Assembly: GCF_001888165.1 (NCBI RefSeq)
Contig: NZ_CP015455.1
Span: 1,730,001 to 1,794,000, forward strand
Origin: Syntrophotalea acetylenica
Lineage (GTDB): Bacteria; Desulfobacterota; Desulfuromonadia; Desulfuromonadales; Syntrophotaleaceae
Direction: 5' to 3'
DNA: 64,000 nucleotides
Below, piece by piece: positions 1,065 to 50,520 of the stretch; position 1 is the first letter of the stretch, and each line of letters opens with the position of its first letter. Below the pieces are notes generated by a model, which was not told the DNA's origin, ran no database searches, and was given only the letters and a program-made list of their open reading frames with translations. The translations under genes were made by a program, and so were the position numbers.

Positions 1065-1916
1065 TCAAACCTCCTCGAAGATGTAGTTGTTGTCGATCAG
1101 TCGTGTGCGGCCGATATATACAGCCAGCAACAGGACAGAGTTGGTATCCACGCGTTCGACACTTTCCAGGGTGTCGCCGTCGCAGATTTTTATGTAATCG
1201 ATGCGGGCATCCGGCTCCCGTCCGATACGCTCGCGCACCAGTCCCACCAGGCGCCGGACATGCTGCTCCCCGTGGCGAGCGGCCACGCCGGCCTGGCGCA
1301 TGGCATCGATCAGGGCCAGAGCCTGCCGGCGTTCAGCAGGGGACAGATAGATATTGCGCGAACTCATGGCCAGCCCGTCCGGCTCGCGCACCGTCGGCAT
1401 GCCGAGGATCTCGATGGGCATGTTGAGATCCGCAACCATGCGGCGCAGCACGGTCAACTGCTGGAAATCCTTGCGACCGAACAGGGCGACATGGGGCTGG
1501 ACAATATTAAACAGCTTGCAGACCACCGTTGTCACCCCGCGAAAGTGCCCCGGGCGGCTCTCCCCGCAGAGGGTTTTGGTCAGTCCCTCGACGTTGACAT
1601 AGGTTGCAAAGCCGCCGGGATACATACCCTCTACAGTCGGATGCAAGAGAATATCGACACCGGCCTGCCGTGCCAGTTCGGCGTCGCGCTCGAGATCCCG
1701 GGGATAGGCGGCGAAATCTTCCTTGGGTCCGAACTGGGTGGGATTGACAAAGATAGAAGCCACCAGCAGGTCGCCCCGTTCGCGGCCCTCCCGCATCAGC
1801 GACAGGTGGCCTTCATGCAGACACCCCATGGTTGGCACAAACGCAATGCGCTTTCCGCTCCTGCGGACTTCTTCGCAGCGGCTCTGAACCACTTTGATAT
1901 CATAGATAATTTCCAT
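1065..1916 (-). CDS. panC: Pantothenate synthetase
   Basis: ATP-dependent condensation of pantoate and beta-alanine to pantothenate, 283 residues, the usual family length. The nucleotidyltransferase signature near residue 30 reads [11 protein letters not shown] (HxGH type), and the protein continues through the conserved FVNPTQF and FPGxxTVV-like segments. It sits between panB (22 bases upstream) and panD (downstream) in one minus-strand operon. The Shine-Dalgarno is weak, so translation may be partly coupled to panB. Confidence 0.95.
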
Positions 1917-1938
1917 AACAGCTCAGCACATCCTCGTT

Positions 1939-2742
1939 TCAGGAAAAACTGTGTTCAGGGCCGGGAAACACGCCCTGCTTCACTTCGTCGATATAACTTC
2001 TGACCCCCTGCCGGATCAAAGTGGCGGCATCGGCATAGCGCTTGACGAATCGCGGGGAATACTTTTCACACAGACCGAGGATATCGTGAATCACCAGCAC
2101 CTGGCCGTCACAGGCAGCACCCGCGCCGATACCAATGGTCGGGATGTCGAGGGTTGCGGTAATCTGGGCGGCGAGCGCCGCTGGTATGCCTTCGAGAACG
2201 ACAGCGAAAGCACCGGCTTGCTGCACGGCACGCGCGTCATTCAGCAGTTGGCGGGCCTGCTGATCCTGCTTGCCCTGCACCCGATAGCCGCCCATGCGAT
2301 GGATCGACTGGGGAGTGAGCCCGACATGCCCAACCACCGGGATGTCCATATTGACGATAGCCCGTACGATGTCGGCGACATGCTCCCCGCCTTCGATCTT
2401 GACAGCCTGGGCGCCCCCTTCCTTGACCAGGCGTCCGGCATTGAGGCGCGCTTCGCGCAGGTCGACCTGGTAGGACAAAAAGGGCATATCTGCCACCAGA
2501 AAGCCCTGCCCTAACCCGCGCGCCACGGCGCGGCAATGATAGATCATTTCCTCCATGGTCACCGGCAGGGTATGCTCGTAACCGGCAACCGCCACCCCGA
2601 CGGAATCGCCCACCAGCACCATGTCGACCCCCTCCAGGTCCATCAGTCGCGCAAAGGGATAGTCGTAGGCGGTAAGCATGGCGATCTTTTCCCCCTCGGC
2701 CTTCATGCGCTGGATATCGAGAACCGTTTTACGTTTCTGCAT
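1939..2742 (-). CDS. panB: 3-methyl-2-oxobutanoate hydroxymethyltransferase
   Basis: First committed enzyme of pantothenate synthesis; it transfers a hydroxymethyl group from 5,10-methylene-THF to ketoisovalerate. From the ATG at 2742 it is 267 residues, normal for the family, starting MQKRKTVLDIQ and containing the conserved MLTAYDYPFA and VGDSVG segments. The Shine-Dalgarno GGAGA is well placed. The open frame runs further upstream, but that part overlaps the terminator of the leader RNA and does not resemble PanB. It is the first gene of the operon, and its mRNA leader is the structured RNA at 2779-2968. Confidence 0.95.
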   Translation of the reverse strand: MQKRKTVLDIQRMKAEGEKIAMLTAYDYPFARLMDLEGVDMVLVGDSVGVAVAGYEHTLPVTMEEMIYHCRAVARGLGQGFLVADMPFLSYQVDLREARLNAGRLVKEGGAQAVKIEGGEHVADIVRAIVNMDIPVVGHVGLTPQSIHRMGGYRVQGKQDQQARQLLNDARAVQQAGAFAVVLEGIPAALAAQITATLDIPTIGIGAGAACDGQVLVIHDILGLCEKYSPRFVKRYADAATLIRQGVRSYIDEVKQGVFPGPEHSFS

Positions 2743-2778
2743 GGCTCTTCTCCATGACGTGTTGTTCGGATCCCGGCC

Positions 2779-2810
2779 AAAAAAAAAGCCTTTCGGACGC
2801 CGTCCGAAAG
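2779..2810 (-). terminator. Intrinsic terminator just before panB
   Basis: On the minus strand a 9-bp stem (CTTTCGGAC/GTCCGAAAG, 2790-2810) with a 3-nt loop is followed after GG and C by nine T (2787-2779). It ends 37 bases before the panB start codon, so it must be bypassed for panB to be transcribed from the upstream promoter. Confidence 0.85.
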
Positions 2811-2968
2811 ACCTGTGCCTGCAGGAGACATACGAATACCGCTCCCGGTGGTACAACTGCCTTCCGTCCCGGTCCAATGGATCCAGGCGGTATGAAACGT
2901 GCGAAAAAGGCAGACCCCCTGCGGCTCCGGCTCATGTTCCGGGCCTGCATCCACCTCTTTCTCAAAGT
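2779..2968 (-). ncRNA. Structured leader RNA upstream of panB, candidate pan-type attenuator
   Basis: About 190 nt are bounded by a sigma70-like promoter (2975-3003) and an intrinsic terminator. Manual folding gives a closing helix GAAAGA/TCTTTC, GTG/CAC and TGCAGG/CCTGCA, then an internal loop, then an upper arm with CTGCCTT/AAGGCAG and a long hairpin (CCGCCTGG... to ...GGGACGG) with one bulged A on each strand. The 3' strand of the closing helix (TCTTTC) overlaps the 5' arm of the terminator, so the two structures are mutually exclusive, as in an attenuator. A conserved 'pan' RNA motif with bulged adenosines is known upstream of pantothenate genes in deltaproteobacteria. The match is my inference from context and shape. 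A free-standing small RNA is the alternative. Confidence 0.55.
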
Positions 2969-2974
2969 TGGGCA

Positions 2975-3003
2975 TCTATAACACAGGATTGCGGCGCTGT
3001 CCA
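2975..3003 (-). promoter_or_regulatory. Promoter of the pan leader RNA
   Basis: Minus-strand -35 TGGACA (2998-3003), 17-bp spacer, -10 TATAGA (2975-2980) preceded by TG as in an extended -10. The predicted start, near 2968, falls at the base of the closing helix of the leader RNA. Confidence 0.6.
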
Positions 3004-3199
3004 GATTTTTCCCTGATTTCCACATCCGGCAACGGGTTTCCGGCCGAAATCGCATCCTGGAGGCTGCCATGCCGGCCCCGGCCAGCCACGCCACATTTGC
3101 GCCCATGATCTGAAACCTCCCGTCGCCGGCGCGACAAAACCCGACGATACGAGGCTATGCCATAAACCACATTTAATGTTTTTCTCTGTTTCAAATTGT

Positions 3200-3441
3200 T
3201 TTATTCATAAGAAACTTTCCCGTATAATGAATCGAAAATGCTATGTTTCGGGCTGATCAAGCCTGCCACAAAGCGCTAAATCATCCTTTACTGAACGAAC
3301 CGCCTTCGATGCAGGCTTGGAATTACCCGACTGTGGCCGCACGGCATCCGATGAATAAACGGGCTGCATCCCTGGGGGAGGGATCCGGTCCGGCGAGCGG
3401 CAGGTGAGGGACAATCTGCATGATTTGAGGAGAATATCCGC
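3200..3441 (+). promoter_or_regulatory. Promoter and leader of the sensory hydrogenase operon
   Basis: A perfect -10 TATAAT lies at 3223-3228 with only a weak -35 (TTTATT at 3200-3205, 17-bp spacer). The following 210-base leader has no credible gene. It contains a 9-bp inverted repeat CAAGCCTGC/GCAGGCTTG (3258-3266, 3311-3319) and a short hairpin ATCCCT-loop-AGGGAT further down, then the Shine-Dalgarno GAGGAG before 3442. The weak -35 suggests dependence on an activator. The role of the inverted repeat is unknown. Confidence 0.45.
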
Positions 3442-3711
3442 ATGAAAAAACAAATAGTCATCTGCATGGGAAGCTCCTGCTTCAGCCGCGGCAACGATCG
3501 AAATCTTGAAATCATCGAAACTTTTATCGCGGAACACAAAATGGAACATCAGATCGATTTGCGCGGCGCGCGCTGCGAAGACAGTTGTGATCGCGGCCCC
3601 ATCCTCAAGATCGACGACAAAGTGTTTTTCCATGCCAACAAGGCGGATCTTATCAAAATCCTGGAGGAACAGCTGCTCGGCGATGACGGATCCACGCCGG
3701 CCGGGTCGTAA
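3442..3711 (+). CDS. Thioredoxin-like [2Fe-2S] ferredoxin
   Basis: An 89-residue protein with the four-cysteine pattern of thioredoxin-like 2Fe-2S ferredoxins (NuoE C-domain type): Cys8 and Cys13 (CMGSSC), then Cys45 and Cys49 (CEDSC). It has no other domain. It starts at a clear GAGGAG Shine-Dalgarno and precedes the sensory hydrogenase by about 100 bases, the arrangement expected for an electron carrier or redox partner of that sensor. Members of this family commonly accompany bifurcating or sensory [FeFe] hydrogenases; a specific partner role here is inferred. Confidence 0.85.
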   Translation: MKKQIVICMGSSCFSRGNDRNLEIIETFIAEHKMEHQIDLRGARCEDSCDRGPILKIDDKVFFHANKADLIKILEEQLLGDDGSTPAGS

Positions 3712-3814
3712 TCGCCCAGCTCTGCTGCAGGCTTGCAATCCGCCCGTCGCCAACCTGCGAAAAAGACCTCCAAAACTCCGTCCCTGTCGGCACAAAATCT
3801 GAAAAGGTCTTTAC

Positions 3815-5572
3815 ATGAATCAGAACCCGTCTCTTCAACCGGCCATTTTCACCCAGGAAACAGAGTGCCAGGACTGCTCCAAATGCGTCAGGTACTGCCC
3901 GGTCAAAGCTATCAAGGTCGCCGATGGGCAAGCCCGTATCGTTCCGGAAAAATGCGTCAGCTGCGGAACCTGCGTCCGGGTTTGTCCCGCCAATGCCAAG
4001 CGGGTACGTAACGACCTCGACCAGATCCGCCATCTGGTTCGATCCGGCGCGCGGGTTTTCGCCTCCATCGCCCCTTCCTTCGTCAGCGAGTTTCCCGACA
4101 TCCCTTCGACCCACATCATCGCGGCGTTGCGCAAACTTGGCTTTGCCGGCGTAAGCGAGACTGCCCTCGGCGCCCAGGAAGTGTCGGCCCTGGTGGCCAC
4201 GGAACTGGCCAAGGGCGAAAATCGTCTCTATCTTTCCTCCGCCTGCCCGGCAGCGGTGACATTTATCCAGAAATACCTGCCCGAACTCTCGGATTCGATA
4301 ACCAGGGTATATTCCCCCCTGCTGTCGCACTGTACCATGTTGCGGGAACATTTCGGCCACGACGCGAGCATTGTCTTTATCGGACCCTGCGGCGCAAAGA
4401 AAAATGAAGCTGACCGGCATCCGGAACTGCTGGATGCGGCCATCACCTTTGCCGATCTGCGCCAGTGGCTGCTCGACGAACACATCGACCCGGCCGCACT
4501 GCGTCCCGGCGGCGAAGACTGTTTTGTCCCCCAAAACGCCCAGGAAGGCGCCCTCTACCCCGTGGAAGGAGGCATGATCGAGACCATACGCCTGCATGGC
4601 GACTGCGATAATGTGCGCTGCATTACGGTCGCTGGCATCAACGGCATCCGCCACGTGTTGTCGGGATTCAAGCCCAAGACCCTGCCGCAACCGCTGTTCA
4701 TGGAACTGCTGGCCTGCCGCGGGGGCTGCATCAACGGGCCCTGCGCCCAGATGCGGGAAGGCAATCTGGATCAGTGGCAGGAAATCATTGCCCGCGCCGA
4801 AGTGCCGGCCGCGCCACTGCAGCGGATGCCGCGACGCGACATCATGGAAACCATTTTCGACCAACCCCTGCAGACACAGCACTACAGCGATCAGGAGATC
4901 CACCAGGCCCTGCGTCTGATCGACAAGGAAAAAACCGAGGACGAACTCAATTGCGGAGGATGCGGGTACGAAACCTGCCGGGAATTCGCTCACGCCATTC
5001 TCTCGGGACACGCTGAAGTATCCATGTGCCTGTCCTACCTGCGGCGTCAGGCGCAGCGCAAGGCCAATGCGCTGCTGCATTGCATTCCTTCGGCCATTGT
5101 CCTGGTAGACAAGGATCTGCGGGTGGTGGACTGCAACCGGCAGTTCGCCGAACTGTTCAGCAAAGACCTGGCGGAAACCTATGATTACTGCCCGGGACTC
5201 AAGGGCGCGGTACTGGAACACATCCTGCCCTTTCCCCAGCTTTTTCGACAAGCCCTGGACAGCGGCGCGACTCTGCAGCACGATGCCCTGCATGTTGAAG
5301 ATCGCATCTTCCAGATCAACATCTTCCCCATTGAACCGGGGCATGTCACCGGCGGCGTCATCAGCGATATTACGGCGCACGAAATGCCGCGGGAGATGAT
5401 TGCCCGCCGGGCTCGGGAAGTCATCCATAAAAACCTCAAGACGGTTCAGGAAATCGCCTGCAAACTCGGAGAAAACATGGCGGAGACGGAGATTCTCCTG
5501 CGTTCGCTGGCGGAAGGCTTCGCTCCGGCCCGCCCGGTGGTGGACGAAGAACTCCGCGAAGAGGACAGGTAA
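3815..5572 (+). CDS. Sensory [FeFe] hydrogenase with C-terminal PAS domain (HydS type)
   Basis: 585 residues. Two [4Fe-4S] ferredoxin motifs come first (Cys18/21/24/28 and Cys47/50/53/57), then a divergent H-cluster domain: L1 SSACPAA (Cys144), L2 GPCGAKKNE (Cys192), L3 ACRGGC (Cys301, Cys305). A further Fe-S domain follows (about 379-406, CGGCG...C), then a PAS domain (about 420-520). The residue before the L1 cluster cysteine is Ala, where catalytic enzymes have the proton-relay Cys; this and the PAS tail are typical of group C, sensory hydrogenases. It probably reports H2 level or redox state to the phosphatase encoded 6 bases downstream. No HydEFG maturases are in the window. Confidence 0.88.
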   Translation: MNQNPSLQPAIFTQETECQDCSKCVRYCPVKAIKVADGQARIVPEKCVSCGTCVRVCPANAKRVRNDLDQIRHLVRSGARVFASIAPSFVSEFPDIPSTHIIAALRKLGFAGVSETALGAQEVSALVATELAKGENRLYLSSACPAAVTFIQKYLPELSDSITRVYSPLLSHCTMLREHFGHDASIVFIGPCGAKKNEADRHPELLDAAITFADLRQWLLDEHIDPAALRPGGEDCFVPQNAQEGALYPVEGGMIETIRLHGDCDNVRCITVAGINGIRHVLSGFKPKTLPQPLFMELLACRGGCINGPCAQMREGNLDQWQEIIARAEVPAAPLQRMPRRDIMETIFDQPLQTQHYSDQEIHQALRLIDKEKTEDELNCGGCGYETCREFAHAILSGHAEVSMCLSYLRRQAQRKANALLHCIPSAIVLVDKDLRVVDCNRQFAELFSKDLAETYDYCPGLKGAVLEHILPFPQLFRQALDSGATLQHDALHVEDRIFQINIFPIEPGHVTGGVISDITAHEMPREMIARRAREVIHKNLKTVQEIACKLGENMAETEILLRSLAEGFAPARPVVDEELREEDR

Positions 5573-5578
5573 GCAGCG

Positions 5579-6752
5579 ATGAACAACTCACTGTTCGTGG
5601 AAATAGAATCGTTTCAATATAACTGCGTCGGCGAGGATATCTGCGGCGACTGCTTCATGATGGAGAAAACGCCGGGCTTCAATCGCATTATCGCGGTGCT
5701 GTCCGACGGACTGGGACACGGGGTCAAGGCCGGCATCCTTTCCAACATGACGGCGTCCATGGCCCTGAAATTCATCGGCAGCAACCAGGCACTCATTCCC
5801 TCCGCCGAAACCATGATGGACGCCCTGCCCATCTGCCAGAAACGCAAAATCAGTTACGCCACCTTTTCCATCATCGATTACATACCCGGCGAAACCGTAC
5901 GGATCATCGAGATGGACAATCCGCCCTTTATCCTGATCCGCAACGGCAAACTCCTGGACCCGGCCTTCAAGGAAGTATGGTCGCCGCGTCATGAAAACCG
6001 TAAAATGCGGATTTATGAAGTCGATGTAAAACCTCAGGACCGGCTGATTTTCATGTCCGACGGCATCAGCCAGGCAGGCCTTGGGTCCGACCAGCACAAA
6101 CTCGGCTGGCGCCGCCAGGGATGCGCTTCACATGTGATCGATCTGGTGCGCGGGAATCCTTCCATATCCGCCCGGGAACTGGCCCGACAGATCGTCGATA
6201 CGGCGAAAAGTCTCGAGGAAAATCGCCAACCCGGCGATGACATGACAGCCGCCGTATTTTACTTCCGCACCCCGCGACGCACCATTCTGCTGACAGGACC
6301 CCCTTTTCCAAAAATTACGACCGGGAATATGCCTGGATCCTCAATGCATTCCGGGGCAACAAGGTCATTTGCGGAGGAACCTCCGCGGAAATCGTGGCGC
6401 GGGAGCTTGGCAGGGAGATCCACACGGACCTCTCCACGGTCGCCAAAGGCATCCCTCCCCTGGCGACCATGGAAGGCGTCGACCTGATTACGGAAGGCAT
6501 TCTGACTTTGACCCACGCCGCCCAGTATCTGGAACGCGGCGAAGCCCCCAGGAAAGCAACGGTGCCGCCCAATTGACCAACCTTCTGCGTGACAGCGACA
6601 GCATCCAGTTTGTGATCGGCACCAAAATCAACGAGGCGCACCAGTCCCCGCGCCACCCGGAAGACCTGGAGATCCGCCGCAACATAGCCAAGCGCCTGGC
6701 GCGTGTACTGCAAAAAAAGTATCTCAAGGAAGTAAACATCCGCTATATCTGA
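5579..6752 (+). CDS. SpoIIE-family phosphatase, output of the hydrogenase sensor (two frameshifts)
   Basis: PP2C-like SpoIIE serine phosphatase: FYNCVGEDICGD-like start, metal-binding LSDGLGHG (about residues 41-48) and MSDGISQAG (about 160). The frame breaks twice. Near 6299-6307 it moves to -1 (resuming SKNYDREYAWILNAF), and near 6545-6549 to -1 again (resuming QESNGAAQLTNLL, ending VNIRYI at 6752). Adding one C to each C5 run gives a continuous 391-residue protein, so the family C-terminal domain is present but out of frame. The first break also coincides with an in-phase slippery heptamer C CCT TTT. The gene is directly coupled to the sensor gene. Whether it is functional depends on whether the frameshifts are real. 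Confidence 0.8.
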
Positions 6753-50323: not shown

Positions 50324-50520
50324 CGCAGGTGGCACGATGTTGTCTCTGAGATGCGCGAGTATCCTGGATAAGCTGACCAACATAATGATCGAGATGTCTT
50401 TCACCCGTTGCCATGGTGAGCCAGCCTACCTTGCAGTGGGACGCCTGAAATGGCCGGTGAAGACCAAGCTTTTGGTCCGGTCCTATTTTCCGGAGCAATC
50501 GGCATCTCGGAGACGCAACA
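50324..50520 (+). ncRNA. ssrS: 6S RNA
   Basis: The 5' arm GTTGTCTCTGAGATGC (50339-50354) pairs with the 3' arm GCATCTCGGAGACGCAAC (50502-50519), a 16-bp closing helix with a 2-nt bulge. The E. coli 6S RNA ends in the same CTCTGAGATG.../GCATCTCGGAGA. Total length is about 181-197 nt, and the 3' half contains a small hairpin GACCAA-loop-TTGGTC that corresponds to the hairpin beside the central bubble. It mimics an open promoter and binds sigma70 RNA polymerase in stationary phase. Promoter and terminator both fit. Confidence 0.9.

Follow-up and report, generated by a model that had tools for sequence, protein, structure and literature searches.

Introduction

In riboswitches that terminate transcription, the sensor helix, the antiterminator and the terminator share strands. 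The panB leader described here resembles them in this sharing of strands between its three structures and differs from them in that its sensing part, a pan element, is small and hairpin-like and its ligand putative. The pan motif (Rfam RF01749) was described by Weinberg et al. (2010; PMC2864571), who reported it from three phyla and suggested a dimeric protein as its partner; the passages of that paper devoted to the motif describe no expression platform. Pan elements ahead of panBCD are also listed among 5′ UTRs mapped by RNA-seq in two Bacillota (PMC4342826, PMC5670726), and Table 2 of PMC2700814 includes, among possible promoters or riboswitches, a conserved stretch ahead of Geobacter panBC labelled 'coenzyme A (panBC)'. 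The latter occupies the same place as the leader studied here, to which we liken it by position, the table entry giving neither structure nor mechanism. According to the relevant passage of a 2022 review, a riboswitch class for CoA is notably absent (PMC9971707). In the open-licence texts published since 2010, we found no later account of what pan senses or how it acts, and in such texts, supplements excluded, no prior description of a pan antiterminator, of kinase targets or of a pan operon in PanB-less genomes.

The panB leader is a member of the pan family

The window analysed here, a 64,000-nt stretch of the Syntrophotalea acetylenica genome (contig NZ_CP015455.1), carries on its minus strand panB, followed by panC and panD (Table 1). 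An earlier note, made from the letters alone, had proposed an attenuator RNA in the span 2779–3003, which runs from a promoter-like site through a terminator with the pan hairpins in between. This observation of a panB leader RNA is partly confirmed and largely real. The note had equated the leader with the pan motif by inference and had asked for a run of the Rfam model; that run gave a match to RF01749 at 2945–2860 (minus strand) over the whole length of the model (positions 1–92), with 40.1 bits against a curated gathering score of 36.2, so that the equation was right. The E-value is 1.5e-5 when 2700–3200 is searched on its own, and the match is the sole one to RF01749 in the genome at E up to 0.001. 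The window element is thus a member of a known family.

Table 1. Features of the panB leader and operon (window coordinates).
Feature	Position	Strand	Details	Basis
Promoter-like site	3003-2975	-	-35 TGGACA 3003-2998, 17-nt spacer, -10 TATAGA 2980-2975	sequence
Pan hairpin 1 (H1)	2945-2923	-	P1 GGC/GCC, P2 CCGG/CCGG	Rfam alignment, MFE
Pan hairpin 2 (H2)	2890-2864	-		Rfam match, MFE
Antiterminator 5′ strand (tail ACGGAAGGC)	2867-2859	-	pairing part 2866-2859	covariation, nascent-RNA folding
Antiterminator 3′ strand GUCUUUCG	2812-2805	-	within terminator 5′ arm; 8 bp with tail	
Intrinsic terminator	2814-2779	-	stem 2814-2786, 12-13 bp, U-run to 2779	terminator scan, MFE
panB, ketopantoate hydroxymethyltransferase	2742-1939	-	start 2742	PF02548 E 7.5e-117
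panC, pantothenate synthetase	1916-1065	-		ORF; PF02569 E 1.4e-106 in own genome
panD, aspartate decarboxylase	1068-661	-		ORF; named by eye

The leader resembles the pan motif of PMC2864571, as presented there, in its score above the cut-off, its stem with two bulged As, its tandem arrangement, typical of most members, and its location upstream of panB, where other members precede panB, panC or panD. H2, the upper hairpin with bulged As of the earlier note, consists of P1 (CCG/CGG, 2890–2888/2866–2864), P2 (CCUGG/CCGGG, 2887–2883/2872–2868) and P3 (UCC/GGA), the two conserved As bulging from opposite strands (A2882, A2867); the panB start codon lies 121 nt 3′ of it. Both hairpins align to the model. 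H1, in which A2926 is clearly bulged and A2938 sits at the loop edge, inside the MFE loop, shows the two-bulge pattern in part and is less regular than H2, with two non-standard pairs in the Rfam alignment. The fold-energy z-score of the leader is −2.76 with the terminator and −0.93 without it; since fold energy alone is weak evidence, the case rests on the covariance-model score and on covariation. The leader is not simply a 6S RNA, as the note had rightly said: the 6S RNA matches RF00013 with 56.5 bits at 50340–50517 (plus strand) and shares with the leader nothing beyond a rod-like look, while an Rfam search of 2700–3200 at E up to 1 returned no 6S match, only pan and a chance mir-488.

Related leaders share the terminator and, in part, the promoter arrangement

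We assembled three sets of leaders. Set 1 comprises 109 leaders from the order and phylum of the window (109 of 110 were kept, L081 having no pattern match). Set 2 derives from the 120 matches listed for a DNA pattern of H2, of which 109 were left after removal of duplicates and short stretches; this pattern excludes the tail, and exact copies of set 1 were dropped from the covariation test, but set 2 is unable to test P1 because the pattern fixes CCG/CGG. Set 3 consists of Bacillota (our name for the phylum to which the Clostridia MAG G428 belongs) and comprised 45 leaders, later 62: the first pattern had missed 22 Bacillota loci, of which 17 distinct ones were added for a re-test in which two leaders (L299 and L301) were re-parsed; the best-site test, the blind alignment of arms and the folding across leaders used the earlier parse of these two.

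After exclusion of exact duplicates and of stretches with fewer than 60 nt downstream, a script placed a terminator in 109/109 leaders of set 1, of which at least three (L007, L060, L098) are misplaced, in 91/109 of set 2 and in 44/45 of set 3, and found none in 19 of the 263. Among the 17 added Bacillota loci, the terminators of L244, L295 and L297, which lie inside a gene, and that of L241, a second one, are doubtful. In the window, the intrinsic terminator that the note had placed directly 5′ of panB is borne out, its end lying 36 nt from the start codon. An H1-type hairpin was present in 71 of the 109 set-1 leaders against 13.5% of shuffles with a looser detector, and in 10 only with a stricter one that requires a closing pair above the bulge; the remaining 38 may be single-hairpin pans or may have been missed.

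At the upstream end, the −10 element is extended by TGt (TGtTATAGA), and a transcript start near 2970–2967 would be expected from its position. A generic sigma-70 scan of 1500–4500 listed no site (mean of 1.5 in shuffles), missing the promoter-like site because its rule demands a T at the last −10 position. As this strict scan was empty, we used conservation across leaders instead: a GGACx-N15-20-TAYN arrangement was found upstream in 45 of the 109 related leaders, compared with 7.6 in mononucleotide shuffles, which agrees with the sigma70-like promoter of the note. Downstream, tblastn with the window panD found homologues 3′ of panC in set-1 and set-2 loci.

The H2 tail and the terminator arm can form a covarying antiterminator

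The earlier note had proposed that folding decides termination through a long closing helix, the 3′ strand of which shares sequence with the terminator 5′ arm. A strand overlapping the arm is supported, but it is the 3′ side and tail of H2, not the closing helix. The long helix of the MFE structure encloses H1 (2961–2947/2922–2903) and misses the terminator. In ten leaders chosen from the 109, pairing between the 5′ leader and the terminator arm amounts to 3–8 bp only and is erratic, which led us to reject the closing helix, whereas the H2 tail pairs with the arm over 7–8 bp in all ten. Likewise, across panB leaders H2 P1 covaries, while the closing helix differs from leader to leader. The pairing part of the tail comprises the CGG of P1 and the adjoining AAGG, the CGG being common to P1 and the antiterminator; in the window, the duplex of CGGAAGGC and GUCUUUCG has 8 bp. 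The RF01749 model ends in a conserved GAaGG, the last four positions of which are unpaired in Rfam and which is complementary here to the terminator 5′ arm. Pairing with the arm as an antiterminator explains this conserved unpaired end, and thus assigns it to an expression platform of the kind that the pan passages of PMC2864571 leave undescribed.

Covariation was assessed by comparing the cognate tail–arm duplex with permuted arms (5000 permutations), taking one representative per distinct tail, kinship being handled by distinct tails alone. No permutation equalled the cognate pairs in set 1 (n = 29, z = −5.6, 0/5000) or, among the matches listed, in set 2 (n = 60, z = −5.1, 0/5000). In set 3, significance was not reached with the loci of the first pattern (n = 32, 355/5000); with the missed loci added and the two leaders re-parsed, the result was n = 39, z = −2.9, 15/5000, and hinges on that choice. 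Pooling all sets gave z = −8.1 for 108 distinct tails (0/5000). The tail–arm pairing hence covaries in each of the three sets, in Bacillota only after the loci were added. Examples of replaced pairs (tail/arm) are GGCAGU/ACUGCC (L008), ACGAAAGG/CCUUUCGU (L035), ACAGAGGG/CCUUCUGU (L036), ACCAGAA/UUCUGGU (L037), CGGACGG/CCGUCCG (L054), ACGGGAG/CUCCCGU (L207) and ACAGAGGGA/UCCUUCUGU (L252).

When arms were aligned blind to the tail, each distinct tail being represented by two leaders at most, covariation in set 1 lay mostly on one antidiagonal (tail 3×16, 4×15, 5×14, 6×13 and 8×11), the top score (7×20) being off it. For all sets together, the antidiagonal pairs were 4×27, 5×26, 6×25 and 7×24, with some off-diagonal scores alongside; in set 2 alone, just 5×26 and 7×24 of the top 14 scores fell on the antidiagonal. 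The best site for the cognate tail was on the terminator 5′ arm in 106 of the 109 leaders of set 1 (42 expected by position; 53–61 with scrambled tails) and in 78/91 of set 2 (39 expected by position; 56–59 scrambled); in Bacillota the figure, 34/44, equals that for scrambled tails (30–34). Poorly fitting leaders include L030, L101, L160, L168, L176 and L190. The consensus tail of the window does no better with its own arm than with the arms of other leaders (−9.7 versus a mean of −10.0, rank 0.55): the window pair is of the consensus type, and the covariation signal is therefore carried by its relatives. As a side observation, a GCGAUAGC stretch, perhaps a GC-GAUA-GC mini-hairpin, follows the tail in L006, L012, L015, L018, L020 and L023 (by eye).

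P1 itself is fully paired in 108 of the 109 set-1 leaders. Seven leaders carry a 3′ triplet other than CGG, and in six of them pairing is restored by a change on the 5′ side (UCG/CGA four times, CUG/CAG once, UGG/CCA once). Since both P1 and the tail–arm duplex covary, a single strand keeps two partners in step.

These results support the earlier view of a transcription attenuator before panB, through the script-placed terminators of set 1 and the covariation of the antiterminator. A constitutive terminator that merely frees a non-regulatory small RNA is also conceivable, as the promoter and the terminator alone would yield an RNA of about 190 nt; the covarying antiterminator, the placement of pan ahead of genes for pantothenate and CoA in several phyla and its listing in the RNA-seq-mapped panBCD 5′ UTRs of two Bacillota (PMC4342826, PMC5670726) all count against it, and we regard it as extremely improbable.

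Predicted folding of the growing RNA suggests kinetic attenuation

Folding of the window RNA from 2972, at lengths of 170–177 nt, where the terminator 5′ arm has been made and the 3′ arm is absent, predicts the tail–arm duplex with a probability of 0.71–0.77 and P1 with 0.24–0.37; at full length these values become 0 and 0.99. The same arm-made stage was computed for the three sets, excluding leaders in which the tail and the start of the terminator are more than 130 nt apart. The mean tail–arm probability was 0.72 in set 1 (above 0.5 in 89 of 108 leaders; scrambled tails, 0.30 and 18 of 108), 0.46 in set 2 among the matches listed (43 of 87; scrambled, 0.27 and 15) and 0.37 in set 3 (16 of 43; scrambled, 0.25 and 4). 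In full-length leaders the terminator wins, with mean tail–arm probabilities of 0.14, 0.04 and 0.07 in sets 1, 2 and 3; we infer from this that antitermination must be kinetic. Covariation and predicted folding thus reveal, by computation, an alternative pairing that couples the sensor to expression.

Taken as a whole, the data make it probable that the pan leader controls panBCD by transcription attenuation through three competing structures, the most likely effector being CoA or a close late intermediate. The tandem bulged-A hairpins would be the sensing part. The antiterminator would be formed by the 3′ strand of H2 (CGG of P1) and AAGG paired to the terminator 5′ arm, so that P1 and the antiterminator would compete for the CGG, and the antiterminator and the terminator for the 5′ arm. 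In the absence of effector, the arm would invade P1 using AAGG as a toehold, terminator formation would be delayed and panBCD would be read; bound effector would hold the basal helix P1 closed, preventing the antiterminator and letting the terminator form. With CoA or a closely coupled late intermediate as the effector, the outcome would be end-product feedback. The opposite polarity, in which effector binding leads to read-through, is very unlikely in our view: P1 and the antiterminator are mutually exclusive in the predicted folds, binding to a hairpin normally stabilises it, and a product usually represses its biosynthetic genes.

The hairpin abuts the start codon or the ribosome site in L132, L137 and L295 (by eye), and in such leaders the same closing of P1 could exert translational control. 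In L295, by eye, no terminator was seen ahead of the gene, a GGGAGG beside P1 resembles a ribosome site, and translation may begin at an in-frame AUA.

The proposed switch could be read by the RNA itself or by a protein. We give a little less than an even chance to a protein acting in trans, perhaps as a dimer, that would sense the effector and bind to the bulged-A hairpins. A protein partner was suggested by Weinberg et al. (PMC2864571), and the hairpins are small, conserved in sequence and often in tandem. The GGA at the bulges is reminiscent of protein sites. The candidates tested, however, fail as general partners. Genome G668 (a 2.31-Mb contig, about a whole genome) carries a pan of 38.2 bits before an ECF S component and no match for PanB or PanC, so that neither enzyme can be an obligatory partner, and both were rejected as the general bound protein. 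CsrA, considered because of the GGA at the bulges, is missing from 15 of 42 pan carriers; of the 17 carriers with a completeness rating of 90% or more, six lack it.

Target genes favour a CoA-level signal

In set 1, panB or panC follows the leader in 107 of 109 cases; neither was found within the available stretch of L043 and L083. Among the 120 set-2 matches listed, the first gene is panB in 72, panC in 18, panD in 2 and another gene in 23, the remaining 5 being classed as short. By judgement, and again among the matches listed, these 23 comprise 18 Rossmann/DUF2520-type genes, which stand before panB or panC, four SIS genes and L130, where pan precedes two ECF S components and a type III pantothenate kinase. 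Among 40 Bacillota regions, four contain pantothenate kinases, of type III in L274, L278 and L297 and of type II in L285 (NF009842, 278.8 versus 234 bits), with an OPT transporter alongside in the latter; the identities rest on profiles for L278 and L285 and on BLAST for L274 and L297. At 31.7 bits, the pan of L278 falls short of the family cut-off, which the other three kinase-linked pans exceed. PanS-like transporters lie ahead of panC in L275, L287, L296 and L306, called by eye in L275 and L306 and matching PF01758 in L287 and L296; the best NCBIfam match of L296 is PanS, below its cut-off. Seen together, L130, L274, L278, L285, L295 and L297 place pan ahead of ECF S components (one of the BioY family), type III or II kinases and an OPT transporter, which suggests that the ECF S and OPT transporters under pan take up pantothenate or a relative.

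The same switch might instead respond to pantothenate (or to pantoate or beta-alanine), a reading compatible with a protein partner and with the predominance of panB and panC as first genes, as well as with the uptake genes under pan. The occurrence of pan ahead of pantothenate-consuming kinases of two unrelated families argues against it, since it would be odd for a sensor of pantothenate to turn off the enzyme that consumes it just when the supply is ample, and we hold this choice of effector to be rather unlikely. Other vitamin riboswitches respond to the finished cofactor, and the pantothenate kinase types found under pan are not known to be inhibited by CoA. Because kinases use up pantothenate, a signal from CoA or a near-CoA end product fits better, and the target genes favour a CoA-level effector.

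Proteins of the DUF2520/Rossmann type head many pan operons (L276, L116, L136, L150 and others), with profile support for one relative, L276 (PF10728); such a protein may perhaps be an alternative ketopantoate reductase. Transketolase halves are present 3′ of DUF2520–panB in the pan-led clusters L276 and L288 (PF00456 for the first).

Distribution of pan and a pan-led operon in genomes without a PanB match

At E up to 0.001, pan matches occur in 28 of 58 relatives and in 32 of 297 genomes of the window's phylum; at E up to 0.01, its order yields 82 carriers among 136 genomes. These three samples overlap. In the Bacillota set, 138 of 348 genomes carry pan (E up to 0.003). The H2 DNA pattern, with the tail left free, matched at least 120 stretches; among the 80 match titles listed are Nitrospinota, Acidobacteria, Chloroflexi, Clostridia, Myxococcales, Methylomirabilis and Dadabacteria. 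Of 16 genomes drawn from the pattern matches, only 8 were matched by RF01749, an indication that the Rfam model tends to miss members with a single hairpin.

At three loci (L117, L122, at 2704–5587, and L196), pan stands ahead of an SIS gene and a HUMPS/RraA fusion, followed by PanE in L122 and L196, the L117 stretch ending inside the fusion. No PanB match was found in the genomes of these loci (G437, G435 and G436) or in G438, where an SIS-like start runs into an assembly gap and the fusion is not in view; all four have PanC, and the same search did find PanB in two pan carriers from other phyla. Since G435–G438 are MAGs, the absence of PanB is uncertain. A search for the fusion matched 31 of 297 genomes of the phylum, and in 19 loci (L312–L330) the fusion is present in full or for the most part; three of these are identical with L117, L122 and L196, and PanB was checked in the genomes of those three only. 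An SIS gene lies upstream in all 19, the H2 pattern precedes it in 14 (poorly in L314) and not in five, and PanE lies 3′ of the fusion in two. We propose, from sequence and gene order, that the SIS and HUMPS-RraA genes might make ketopantoate from formaldehyde and 2-oxoisovalerate, replacing PanB; we recognised no report of such a replacement in the open-licence literature.

Implications

The most far-reaching reading of these data would be that pan is the missing CoA riboswitch, a minimal RNA binding CoA, dephospho-CoA or phosphopantetheine by itself, that it controls the whole CoA supply, that is synthesis, uptake and the kinase types not inhibited by CoA, and that it marks a hitherto unrecognised, PanB-free route to ketopantoate made of SIS and the HUMPS-RraA fusion; taken in full, this is unlikely. 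The window leader is a regular new member of a known, unexplained family, and its value is that the mechanism is now open to test: an antiterminator with defined bases allows it to be tested by a single transcription assay, and the choice of effector is narrowed by the kinase and transporter targets. Since pan is a marker of genes for CoA supply, its location can also help to assign functions, for example to the operon found in PanB-less genomes.
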